Assembly: GCA_022450595.1 (NCBI GenBank)
Contig: JAKUPT010000008.1
Span: 1-55,871 of the forward strand
DNA: 55,871 nucleotides
Source of the DNA: Bdellovibrionales bacterium
GTDB taxonomy: Bacteria; Bdellovibrionota; Bdellovibrionia; Bdellovibrionales; UBA1609
Reading direction: 5' to 3'
The notes beneath the pieces are model-generated. The model saw nothing but the letters and a program-made list of their open reading frames with translations, was not told the origin of the DNA and did not search any database. Below are positions 9,351 to 14,280 of this stretch, in pieces. Every line of letters starts with the position of its first letter. The first letter of the stretch is position 1. The position numbers and the translations under genes are program-made.

Positions 9351-10675
9351 AAGACTTTAAGCTACAAACCTATGGTTGCAAAGTGAACAGCTATGACAGT
9401 GGCTTGTTGCAAAAGCGTTTGGCTCAAGCTGGTTACATTCAAAATGACAGCTCAGACTCTTTACATATTCTAAACACCTGTGCCGTCACAGCGGAAGCGA
9501 CAAAAGAAGCCCTACGCTCTATCAGAAAAATTAAAGCTAAAAACCCCCTTGCCACTGTGGTTGTAACTGGCTGTGCAGCTCAAGTAGATACGGACAAGTT
9601 TGAGTCTTTAAAAGCCGCTGATCTTGTTGTTGCCAATTCTCATAAAGGGCAATTAGAAGATATATTAAAAAAGCACTTTCGTGGTGAATTAGAACAGCGA
9701 GTATTTAAGTCAAATATTTTTAAAAAAGCAGATCTTGAAGCCGGAGGTGGTTTAGAAAACTCACACACCCGTAGTTTTTTAAAGATACAAGATGGCTGTA
9801 ACAGTTTTTGTACTTATTGTGTGATTCCCTTTGCTCGTGGAAAATCCAGAAGCATACCTATAGATGATTTAGTACAAAGAGTGAATGAGCTGTACTTTCA
9901 AGGCTTCAGAGAAGTAGTGCTAACAGGAGTTCATATTGGTGATTACGAAGACGCAGCCTTTGCTCCTGAAAAAACAAGAGGTCTTGAAGATTTAGTTGAG
10001 CAGCTGCTTATGCGCACTAAAATTCAACGCTTTCGTCTATCAAGCCTTGAGCCAGTGGAATTAACTCCACGATTGGTTGAACTCTATAAGTCAGAGCCAA
10101 GACTTTGTCGTCATTTTCATATGAGCATACAGTCTGCAAACTCCAATGTTTTAAAAGACATGAAAAGGCAATACACACAAAAAGAAGTGATTGAGTCTTT
10201 AAAGACCATTGAGTCCGAGCTTCCAGGCAGCTATGTAGGCATGGACATTATTGTGGGGTTCCCGGGAGAAACCACAGAGGAGTTTGAAGACACTTACAAT
10301 TGTTTGTCTTCCTTGGACTGGGCACGTATTCATGTTTTTCCCTACAGCCCACGACCAGGTGTTTATGCCAATAGACTTTCTGGGCAGTGGCCTCGGTCAG
10401 AGATTATGAATAGAGCAAAGAAGTTGCGCGAGCTCAGTGCCCAGCGAGCCCAACAAAAAGCCATTTCTCAAATTAATGACATTAAAGTGGCAATGCCTTT
10501 AAAAAATAATAAATCTTCTGATCATCAACAATTGCTCACCAGAGATTATTGGAATGTGTTTGTTGCCACAGATAAAGATTTAGATCCGTTAAAAGAATAT
10601 AAGGTGAAAGTCACAGGTTACGATCAATCACATGAGTCTCGTATGGATGGGGCTTTATTTGCCGAGCTTATTTAA
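9347..10675 (+). CDS. mtaB: tRNA t6A37 methylthiotransferase, MtaB-like (radical SAM)
   Basis: Adds a methylthio group to t6A37. The N-terminal UPF0004 domain has TYGCKVN, NTCAVT and TGCAAQ, whose three cysteines hold an auxiliary 4Fe-4S cluster; the radical-SAM motif CNSFCTYCVIPFARG follows, and a TRAM-like tail ends the protein. GTG 9347 is chosen because GGAGG (9333-9337) lies nine bases before it; TTG 9338 abuts the same GGAGG and is sterically unlikely. The GTGA overlap with the mnmA stop suggests coupling. The stop overlaps the stop of the convergent gene by 4 nt. Confidence 0.93.
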   Translation: MKDFKLQTYGCKVNSYDSGLLQKRLAQAGYIQNDSSDSLHILNTCAVTAEATKEALRSIRKIKAKNPLATVVVTGCAAQVDTDKFESLKAADLVVANSHKGQLEDILKKHFRGELEQRVFKSNIFKKADLEAGGGLENSHTRSFLKIQDGCNSFCTYCVIPFARGKSRSIPIDDLVQRVNELYFQGFREVVLTGVHIGDYEDAAFAPEKTRGLEDLVEQLLMRTKIQRFRLSSLEPVELTPRLVELYKSEPRLCRHFHMSIQSANSNVLKDMKRQYTQKEVIESLKTIESELPGSYVGMDIIVGFPGETTEEFEDTYNCLSSLDWARIHVFPYSPRPGVYANRLSGQWPRSEIMNRAKKLRELSAQRAQQKAISQINDIKVAMPLKNNKSSDHQQLLTRDYWNVFVATDKDLDPLKEYKVKVTGYDQSHESRMDGALFAELI

Positions 10676-13359
10676 GAAGCTGATGGAAAAAGTTTAATAC
10701 ACATTTTTCCAGAAGCATTGCTTTGCTGCTTTTGTATTTTTATCTGTTTGTTGATTTCGTAAAGATTCATTGGAAGAATTAATTTTTTTGGAGCAATCTT
10801 TTCATTATTATAAATCATTTTGTAGAGCTTATCTAGCTCTTCAAGAGTGAAAAAATCATTGTTAACAGCCAGCCTAAGTGCTTTTAGGCGCTCACTCGTT
10901 GTTGAAATATTCATCATTTTTAAAACCCACAACAGTTCATAATCCGAAGGGTTTTCTCTTGAGATCAAATGCTTTAAATATACAATAGGCGCAAATCGCA
11001 CATAGGTTTGAAGAAAGTTTTTAGTTTGTCTGTCAAAAAGCTCAGACAAAATATCAGACTCAAGCAGGGCTATTAATAGTTCTGATTTTTTTAAAGTTTG
11101 GGTCGAAGAGTCGAGATGTAGTACTTGCGCGGCCATTTTTGTGTTTCCAGCCAGTTCAATATCAGATATCAGTTGTTGTAAGGAGCGTGTGTTGTACACA
11201 ATTTCTTTTTTAAGTGGTTCAGATATAGGATATCTTCTGATGATTTTCATGAGTTTTGCAAGTCCAACTCTGACTTCTTCCACACGATGTTTGACTTGAT
11301 CTTCGTAACGTAGACTTTGTTTTCTTTCGCTAAATTCTGCAAAATCATTAACAGCACGTTTAAGCATATTTATGTGATGCATATCTATATTGTTTAAGTT
11401 CTGCCTGATCTCATCAAGAACCTTATTGATATTAAAAGGACCATAGCCTGAGTTGGCCATAGACTCATTGATCATTTTATCAACATGAGAGGGGCTTTGA
11501 TTTAAAATTAAAATTTGATTATAAAGTCGTTTAATAAACTTTGAGGTGTAATTGATCTCATTGCTGTCTTTATTAAGTAAGTAGTTATGTTTTGAATACT
11601 GAGTGGCGAGCTTATAACTGGTGTGTATCATGCTAGGTGCAAAATCCCATTTTTGTAATGAATGATACATCTGAGGTCTGTAAAGTGCGGCTGAAATCAC
11701 ATAGGTGTTTATATCAGCAAAGGCCATGGATCTAAGCAAGGGGGTTAAAACCTTAATGCCAAATCTTTTTGAAGAGTAAGTGTACCCCTTCCAGTGAAAG
11801 CCGTAAATAAATTGAAGGGAAATTTCAAAACGTTCGCCTTTTTCGTTAAAGTAATCAAGCTTAGCTTTGCTAAAATCTTCTAATTTTAATAACTCATCAA
11901 GACTCCAAACTTTACCTGTTTTTTTATCAACAAACTCTCCATCTAAAAACTCTTTTTCAGACAAGTAAGGGTGTTCAAGATAGGCTGAGTAATTGGATTG
12001 CTTTTCTTTGTACATCAAGGCATCTGATCCAATTCTTAACTCAATCAATGAAAGTTTGCCCTCTTGGATAAGATTTTTAATGTGTCCAAATACATACTTA
12101 TTAAACTGAATGGTAGCAAAATCTCTAGCCTGTTCATAAGAGCGGATGGAATCTGGCACATAGACTAAAGAGTTAAGGGCTAAATCATAGTCACCTGGAA
12201 ACATAAAACTTCTGCTTAAACTTGAGGCGTACAAGCCAAAACCTGAGTGAATGTACTCGTTACTTGGAAACTTTAAATTCTTAATTTTATCAAAAACTTC
12301 AAAAGCGCGGGCAGGGTCCCTGTCTGCATTAAAATGGCTTGGAAAATACACTTCCATTCCTTGTGATCTCATTTCAGAAGGTTTAAGAGATTCTGGCACT
12401 TGATCAGCTACTTTTTGCCATAGGGCTTGGTTTTGGGGCAGCAACTGTTGTTGTTTGGCGCTGATATCAAAGTTTGGATAAACTCTAAAAGCCGTCATAA
12501 GACTCTCTTTGCCGCGACTTTCTTTGCCCGTTTTAGAGTTATATTCGGAAACAATGACCTCTTCTTTGTTTTCAATTTCTCTCCATCTATAGACATCACT
12601 AAATTTAAATTGATTGGGTTTAACTTTAAAAGCCGAGACAACAAATGGAGGTTCAGCTAAGCTCATAGCAGGAAGAACTGTTTGAATGTTGTGATTTTTT
12701 GGATTGAAGTGCAACTTTGTGAACTGATGCACTTGGTGGGCTTTTGTGATCTCTTCAAACATCAGTCTTTTCATGTTTTCAACTTCTTGATCACTTAAGT
12801 TTAATCCAAACTTCTCACCCCATTGAAATAGTGAAATATGAACGGCGTGTTCACTGGTAGCATTTCCACCTAAGTTTCTATGGGCTTGATGCTTTTCATA
12901 AATGCTGGGGGCGTGTTCTTTTAGCATGTCCCAAAACCTCATTTGCCAAGCCACAAACTCTGGATGAGGCTTTAATGCTAAAAATCGGCTTTGAGTTCCG
13001 ACCACGCTAAATTCTATTCTCTCAGGATCTATCAGTAAGACGGTTTTATCTAGTTTGTACTTTTCGATCACTTCAGGTGGAAGTTTTTTTAATATTTCAA
13101 AAAACTCATATATGGAGCTTTTGTCCATGTCATCTAAGTAGACAAGGGTGGAATGGAATCTTCGGCCCAAAGTGTTTAATTTTAAATGCGGAAAATGCTT
13201 TGGAATGACAGAGGCTATATGACCTAAAATGTTTCTGTCTTTATCAATCAAATGAGAAGGGAAGCTGATTTGTACAGTGCTTGATGTAGTTGCAGCAATA
13301 ACTATGTTTGAAACACAGATTAAAACTACTAGTAATATCGCCCTCAGCAACGCCACCAA
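10672..13359 (-). CDS. Large exported protein with an N-terminal 2H-phosphoesterase-like domain
   Basis: 895 aa with a clear N-terminal signal peptide (hydrophobic residues about 5-22, ending near IAA). I do not know a named family. The N-terminal 200 residues contain two motifs spaced 105 residues apart, HSTL (69-72, context RRFHSTLVYL) and HISL (174-177, context EHAVHISLFQW). This is the H-x-T/S-hydrophobic pair that defines 2H phosphoesterases. The remaining 650 residues are largely helical, with no metal site I can name. TTG 13359 is preferred, with a GGGGGG run seven bases upstream; GTG 13356 is the alternative. Lies 48 nt behind an exported HD protein, likely one transcript. Confidence 0.75.
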   Translation of the reverse strand: MVALLRAILLVVLICVSNIVIAATTSSTVQISFPSHLIDKDRNILGHIASVIPKHFPHLKLNTLGRRFHSTLVYLDDMDKSSIYEFFEILKKLPPEVIEKYKLDKTVLLIDPERIEFSVVGTQSRFLALKPHPEFVAWQMRFWDMLKEHAPSIYEKHQAHRNLGGNATSEHAVHISLFQWGEKFGLNLSDQEVENMKRLMFEEITKAHQVHQFTKLHFNPKNHNIQTVLPAMSLAEPPFVVSAFKVKPNQFKFSDVYRWREIENKEEVIVSEYNSKTGKESRGKESLMTAFRVYPNFDISAKQQQLLPQNQALWQKVADQVPESLKPSEMRSQGMEVYFPSHFNADRDPARAFEVFDKIKNLKFPSNEYIHSGFGLYASSLSRSFMFPGDYDLALNSLVYVPDSIRSYEQARDFATIQFNKYVFGHIKNLIQEGKLSLIELRIGSDALMYKEKQSNYSAYLEHPYLSEKEFLDGEFVDKKTGKVWSLDELLKLEDFSKAKLDYFNEKGERFEISLQFIYGFHWKGYTYSSKRFGIKVLTPLLRSMAFADINTYVISAALYRPQMYHSLQKWDFAPSMIHTSYKLATQYSKHNYLLNKDSNEINYTSKFIKRLYNQILILNQSPSHVDKMINESMANSGYGPFNINKVLDEIRQNLNNIDMHHINMLKRAVNDFAEFSERKQSLRYEDQVKHRVEEVRVGLAKLMKIIRRYPISEPLKKEIVYNTRSLQQLISDIELAGNTKMAAQVLHLDSSTQTLKKSELLIALLESDILSELFDRQTKNFLQTYVRFAPIVYLKHLISRENPSDYELLWVLKMMNISTTSERLKALRLAVNNDFFTLEELDKLYKMIYNNEKIAPKKLILPMNLYEINKQIKIQKQQSNASGKMCIKLFPSAS

Positions 13360-13407
13360 AACTCATCCCCCCGGATAGATGAATAGATCTTTCGGGTTAT
13401 CCCAACC

Positions 13408-14280
13408 TCACAACAACTCTAAATACTCTTTCTCATGGTAGGAGAGTATTTCTTTTAGAGTGTTTGAATCTTTTATAAGGTTTTTTAACGACATTCTTAC
13501 ATCGCCGTTATTTCTATAGAGTTCAAGTGCCATCTTATAGGGGCCAATGCTTATTCTTTGATCAGATGCCACTCTGCTGTATGCTTCGGAATATAAGTAG
13601 GTTAAGATTTTTTGAACTTCAGCTGACTTTATTTGTGCCATGGCATTGCCATAGAACTCATAATACTTAGGGGTAAACTTTTTATATCTCAAAGCTTGAA
13701 TGGCGGCATCTGCTTTATCGAGGTCTTTTACAAGTTTCGCCTCTGGAGTGCGGGCATATTCATAATCAAGCCATAGTTTATAAAGGTAACGTCCTTCTTT
13801 ACCAAATTTCTTTTTAAGTTTACGAAAGACATGTTTTTCCATGCGATGTTTTGTGTTTTTATCGATACGATCATTGGGGGTAAAGTCTGGTACTACAAAT
13901 TCAGCGATATCATGGACTAGAGCTAGGTCTTTCATAATTCTTAAATTTAAGTTTTTATGATTAACAGCAAAGGCCACAATTCCAGCTTTTAATTTAGTGA
14001 TATGATCATAAATGGATTCCATTCGAAGAGCTTGTTGCTCAGATATGCCTATGGAAATTGCGCCAGAGCGAGGTTTAGTGCTTAATTTGTAGTATATGTC
14101 GGTAAATGTAAGACCTGGAGTGAAAAGATCTATAATTATTGGATCACCGGCAAAAAGCACATTGCAGGCTTTACTCCTTATTTTGGAGTTTTTAAAATCA
14201 GAACGAACAGATGGTATTCCCCCATAGCTCAGCTGTGGTAGGAGTCCAACCAGGAGCAGTATAGTCAACCCTAACTTCAC
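13408..14280 (-). CDS. Exported HD-domain hydrolase resembling HDDC2/YfbR 5'-nucleotidases
   Basis: 290 aa with a signal peptide (residues 1-20, cleavage near SYG-G). The mature part has the HD-superfamily ligands in the right order: His93 (ESIYDH), His123-Asp124 (LALVHDIAE) and Asp188 (LVKDLDKADAAIQA). The run from LVHDIAE through LWLDYEYARTPEAKLVKDLDK matches the pattern I know from HDDC2-type 5'-deoxynucleotidases, which are normally cytoplasmic; a periplasmic copy is unusual. The C-terminal 80 residues are an extra helical part. Start GTG 14280 has GGAG seven bases upstream. It is the first gene of a two-gene minus-strand unit with the 2H-like gene. Confidence 0.8.
   Translation of the reverse strand: MKLGLTILLLVGLLPQLSYGGIPSVRSDFKNSKIRSKACNVLFAGDPIIIDLFTPGLTFTDIYYKLSTKPRSGAISIGISEQQALRMESIYDHITKLKAGIVAFAVNHKNLNLRIMKDLALVHDIAEFVVPDFTPNDRIDKNTKHRMEKHVFRKLKKKFGKEGRYLYKLWLDYEYARTPEAKLVKDLDKADAAIQALRYKKFTPKYYEFYGNAMAQIKSAEVQKILTYLYSEAYSRVASDQRISIGPYKMALELYRNNGDVRMSLKNLIKDSNTLKEILSYHEKEYLELL

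Follow-up and report, generated by a model that had tools for sequence, protein, structure and literature searches.

Closest described systems

The 2H phosphoesterases (LigT, CNPase and 2'-5' RNA ligase-like enzymes, PF13563) constitute a superfamily that is defined by two Hx[ST] motifs (PMC5283653). Recognition by a Pfam profile is not strictly defining, as the members share little sequence identity. The nucleotidyltransferase (Pol-beta) fold is defined by a GS/GG motif, three acidic residues, and a sheet of four to six strands backed by two helices (PMC11646218). Mobile elements are known to deliver proteins of several domains, nucleotidyltransferase and 2H domains among them; these are the polyvalent proteins found in phages and conjugative elements (PMC5512222).

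A protein of 895 residues that, like the polyvalent proteins, appears to draw on these two kinds of domain is encoded in the window, the whole stretch of 55,871 nucleotides that was analysed (contig JAKUPT010000008.1 of a Bdellovibrionales bacterium). Unlike the polyvalent proteins, it lies in a locus without mobile-element context, and no homologue was found in phage, plasmid and viral collections or contigs. It is best read as an exported, bifunctional protein with a 2H and a nucleotidyltransferase domain, very rare and restricted to a few Bdellovibrionota. Both component domains are of already known kinds, and their exported combination is the unusual part. To our knowledge there is no described example of this exported architecture, and no matching record was found in the collections searched.

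Gene layout and export signals

Two open reading frames were found on the minus strand, 48 nt apart, as the original prediction had described. The first (13408..14280) encodes an HD protein of 290 aa. It starts with GTG and has a GGAG Shine-Dalgarno sequence 7 nt upstream. The second (10672..13359) encodes the large protein of 895 aa, and its TTG start codon follows a G-rich stretch. No minus-strand promoter match was found between the two. The flanking genes, named by inspection of their translations, are both on the plus strand: an rnc-like gene from 14443 beside the HD gene, and an mtaB-like gene that ends at 10675 beside the large gene.

Judged by their sequences, both proteins begin with signal peptides. 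That of the HD protein, MKLGLTILLLVGLLPQLSYG (14221..14280, minus strand, from the GTG start), is supported by its hydrophobicity, the Shine-Dalgarno sequence and the exported relatives. That of the large protein, MVALLRAILLVVLICVSNIVIA (residues 1-22; 13294..13359, minus strand), is supported by its hydrophobicity and by both relatives, so that all three members of the family carry a predicted signal peptide. Among the 44 open reading frames of the window, the N-terminus of the large protein ranks first in hydrophobicity and that of the HD protein ranks fifth. With the segments kept in relatives, the signal peptides proposed earlier for both proteins are upheld.

Family and overall build of the large protein

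Three members of the large protein family are known: the window protein and its homologues in G005 (Bdellovibrionaceae UBA1609; 36% identity) and G359 (Bacteriovoracaceae UBA4573; 23% identity). The contigs were scanned for two short peptide motifs of the 2H region, a scan that remote members outside the phylum may escape. Weak matches to the large gene in G149, G242 and G243 were short and low-scoring, two of the three contained stop codons, and they were dismissed as chance. Searches of the large protein against Pfam, NCBIfam, PHROG, PADLOC and PDB sequences gave nothing above chance.

The full-length AlphaFold model is poor (mean pLDDT 48) and mainly helical, and Foldseek with this model returned no match below 1e-3. 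Its helices include a C-terminal region, residues 560-895 (10675..11682, minus strand), in which the best part reaches pLDDT 80-90. The 2H motifs on which the original description of the large protein was built are present. That description was incomplete, since most of the remainder consists of a nucleotidyltransferase-like domain and a long tail of helices.

It could be that the domains are degenerate and that the large protein has a structural or binding function in the envelope. The failure of any sequence family to recognise it and the mainly helical, low-confidence full model are consistent with such a role, as is the absence of ATP from the periplasm. However, H69, T71, H174, S176, D390, D392 and E440 are invariant across the three members. 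Invariance of catalytic positions at identities down to 23% argues for retained chemistry, and a degenerate envelope protein is considered unlikely.

The membrane proteins encoded after the homologues in G005 and G359 were compared as a possible shared partner and showed no similarity. An exported protein of 430 aa beside the G005 homologue (L008:6224-7516) has relatives in the window's genome, on contigs C82 and C114 (E=1e-14 and 7e-5), at positions unrelated to the locus described here.

The 2H-like domain

Residues 25-238 of the large protein (12646..13287, minus strand) are likely to form a 2H domain, as suggested by conserved Hx[ST] motifs and by profile alignment. The motifs are FHSTL (HST 69-71; 13144-13158, minus strand) and VHISL (HIS 174-176; 12829-12843, minus strand), so that H69-S-T71 and H174-I-S176 provide the two Hx[ST] motifs of the superfamily. 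Each family member contains three to six Hx[ST] sites, and only those at HST 69-71 and HIS 174-176 are conserved in all three; conservation, instead of the motifs alone, was therefore used as evidence. In hhalign against PF13563 proteins of the phylum, the HST falls on the first HxT, and 4 of 208 column shuffles were as good (p ~0.02). The order of strands and helices in residues 25-238 of the full-length model fits the 2H pattern, at low confidence.

The domain has in common with 2H phosphoesterases a pair of conserved Hx[ST] motifs, at a distance of 105-124 residues, and, as far as the model shows, a similar strand and helix order. It differs from the usual members in being exported, in its N-terminal position in a protein of 895 aa, and in being missed by PF13563. 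No Pfam family profile matched it even at E=10. The proposal of a 2H-like protein is borne out in its motifs and their conservation, but none of the library models picks the domain up.

Exported 2H proteins are, by their N-termini, common in Bdellovibrionota, though a PF13563 search of the window's genome found nothing. A separate family of exported proteins or lipoproteins of ~200-270 aa (RGEAHITVITPPE…PHVTLGYTxRDLH…SC) recurs across Bdellovibrionales (loci L130-L149, in G199, G219, G249, G210, G209 and others). All 20 inspected members have an N-terminal hydrophobic segment, and many have a lipobox; this is the basis for calling such proteins common. The family shares with the window protein its export, the two Hx[ST] motifs and the phylum, but it is stand-alone, unlike the window domain. 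Descent of the window domain from this lipoprotein family is unsupported, as their profiles are not significantly similar (30 of 177 shuffles were as good). In G222 (L129:2435-5584), a member stands at the C-terminal end of a frame of 1049 aa. The upstream part of this frame runs antisense to another gene, and translation probably begins at the internal MTITCSRFIFICALGLSSLAMLSC. G006 has a frame of 944 aa (L128:3571-6405) with an N-terminal 2H domain (PF13563), no signal peptide, and a long region after it.

The nucleotidyltransferase-like domain

Residues ~325-530 of the large protein (11770..12387, minus strand) contain the motifs LYAS (376-379), GD390xD392 and E440LRxGS, and the lysines K498/K500. 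Residues 373-392 read GFGLYASSLSRSFMFPGDYD. G373, L-Y-A-S, G-D-x-D and E440-L-R-x-G-S are invariant in all three members. The GS/GG-like motif is followed by DxD at canonical spacing (LYAS379, GD390xD392), though A replaces G. The candidate for the third acid, E440, is invariant and on a predicted strand, and is assigned by position only.

In hhalign against MNT proteins (PF01909), LYASSLSRSFMFPGDYDL was superposed on LYGSRARGTYKHGSDIDL, and 2 of 188 shuffles were as good; PF01909 did not detect the large protein in a single-sequence HMM search. The GS-like motif, the DxD motif and the spacing between them are common to the window domain and the MNT/NTP_transf_2 nucleotidyltransferases, the distance from S379 to D390 being 11 in both. 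The window domain has LYAS, not the LYGS of MNT proteins, and belongs to a far larger, exported protein.

A model of the cropped residues 325-600 has a pTM of 0.62 and a core pLDDT of 70-90. Its main elements are five strands and two helices, which corresponds, at moderate confidence, to a sheet of four to six strands with two back helices. Foldseek of this model against PDB gave only two matches below 1e-3, the Megaviridae nucleotidyltransferases 4amq and 4ams (E=5e-5 and 6.5e-5; probability 1.00). In the viral library, 12 proteins fell below 1e-3; those whose records name an organism come without exception from giant viruses or virophages. A pithovirus nucleotidyl transferase matched best (2e-8). 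With Foldseek TM-scores as low as 0.3-0.4, support extends to the fold class and not to its details. These proteins, the closest fold match of the domain, are viral and only ~10% identical to it, and their record titles mention neither a 2H domain nor export.

A nucleotidyltransferase fold of residues ~325-530 is well supported as a prediction by the invariant motifs, hhalign and the Foldseek matches of the crop model. The large protein had been taken for a hydrolase only, and this no longer holds, because its core is nucleotidyltransferase-like as well.

Weaker, non-significant PDB fold matches of the crop model were MiD51, OAS1, cGAS and TUT7. The first three would fit a nucleotide-signal enzyme, one that synthesises a 2'-5' or cyclic oligonucleotide with its nucleotidyltransferase domain and degrades it with its 2H domain, comparable to OAS and 2H phosphodiesterases or to RelA/SpoT. 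2H enzymes act on cyclic oligonucleotides. They also act on 2'-5' links (PMC8406329; PMC5512222). However, the matches to OAS1, cGAS and MiD51 fall short of significance (E 0.07 to 0.6), and no effector gene lies near the locus. We know of no receptor for a signal made outside the inner membrane. A role of this kind is regarded as quite improbable.

The exported HD protein

The HD motif noted earlier was confirmed by Pfam and PDB sequence matches. The protein matches Pfam HD_3 (PF13023) with E=3.6e-20 and 73 bits (curated cut-off 22.5). Among PDB sequences, it matches human HDDC2 (4dmb, E=4.2e-20) and yeast YGL101W (5yox, E=6e-16), and archaeal structures too. In the alignment to 4dmb, the metal ligands H…HD…D are all in place. 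The motif residues are H93 (of YDH), H123 and D124, E127, the D of PDFTP, and the LD of KDLDKAD (185-191).

The HD protein shares with the HDDC2/YfbR 5'-deoxynucleotidases the sequence family, the H…HD…D ligands, and HDxxE with the following D. It differs in its signal peptide and in a C-terminal extension of ~50 residues. On these sequence features, it is a true HD hydrolase; the enzyme family is known, and the member found here is uncommon in being exported. Its likely activity is the dephosphorylation of (deoxy)nucleoside monophosphates; it would be an exported metal-dependent 5'-(deoxy)nucleotidase, converting (d)NMPs to nucleosides.

HD_3 genes are present in 43 of 369 Bdellovibrionota genomes. 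Their products are mostly cytoplasmic, unlike the window protein. Among the loci with a readable frame, HD_3 proteins with a signal peptide were seen in only three of the 369 genomes (the window's, G006 and G044), about eight inspected loci having given no readable match. The exported HD proteins of G006 and G044 are 31-33% identical to that of the window, and their neighbourhoods are unrelated. A further relative of the exported group, in G317 (L061:1366-1926, minus strand), has no evident signal peptide; it may be truncated or mis-started.

Relationship between the two genes

The original prediction joined both proteins in one breakdown path, for example for prey nucleic acid, and proposed a search for the pair in other Bdellovibrionota. 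In such a path, the 2H domain would trim oligonucleotides and the HD protein would dephosphorylate the mononucleotides. The genes are on the same strand, 48 nt apart, no terminator-like site was found between them, and both products are predicted to be exported. Exported nucleotide digestion would also suit the lifestyle, given the secreted nuclease Bd3507 of Bdellovibrio bacteriovorus, reported to be upregulated late in prey growth (PMC12546842).

The distribution of the genes speaks against this path. G005 and G359, the two other holders of the large gene, have no detected HD_3 gene, and G006 and G044, the two other holders of an exported HD gene, lack the large gene. The partners are apart in all four informative genomes, the outcome that the original prediction had itself named as refuting the pair. 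On present data, the pair is peculiar to the window's genome, so a joint pathway is unsupported. Comparably strong N-terminal hydrophobic segments are found in ~10 of the 44 open reading frames of the window, and because about a quarter of its genes start in this way, two exported neighbours are unremarkable. The synthetic-type domain of the large protein is a further point against a purely degradative path. A common breakdown path is very unlikely, and the adjacency of the two genes is probably due to chance.

Proposed action and meaning

In the explanation that we prefer, with a little less than even confidence, an exported protein composed of a 2H domain, a Pol-beta nucleotidyltransferase domain and a helical region acts on the ends of RNA or oligonucleotides, with the HD protein as an independent nucleotidase that is likewise exported. 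The large protein would be exported by Sec. Its 2H-like domain would be followed by the transferase domain, with D390, D392 and probably E440 as metal ligands, and then by the helical region, which may bind RNA or a partner. Action would take place outside the inner membrane of the predator, probably on prey material. Opening of 2',3'-cyclic phosphates or cleavage of 2'-5' links may fall to the 2H site; the transferase site may attach a nucleotide, either at the exposed terminus or on a protein of the prey. The genes, the signal peptides at the level of sequence, the membership in the HD family and the conserved motifs are established; the substrates, the site of action and any cooperation of both proteins are no more than inferences. 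That the organism is a predator is suggested by its relatives.

Nucleotidyltransferases need NTPs and are normally cytoplasmic. The scarcity of NTP outside the inner membrane is the main difficulty for the preferred explanation, since the large protein, unless it is inactive, must gain access to the cytoplasm of the prey or to NTP that has been released. Delivery into prey or the use of prey NTPs would meet this need.

It is possible, if rather doubtful, that a predatory lineage exports a nucleotidyltransferase of the giant-virus type joined to a 2H domain, for use on prey RNA ends, on prey proteins or in a nucleotide signal. If true, the architecture of this exported effector would be one not described before. 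The resemblance in fold to proteins of giant viruses and virophages also raises the question of where that viral family came from. Were such a fusion to exist in predatory bacteria, it would suggest chemistry carried out directly on prey RNA, on protein or on nucleotide signals, and it would provide a candidate effector open to testing in a group of which few effectors are well understood.
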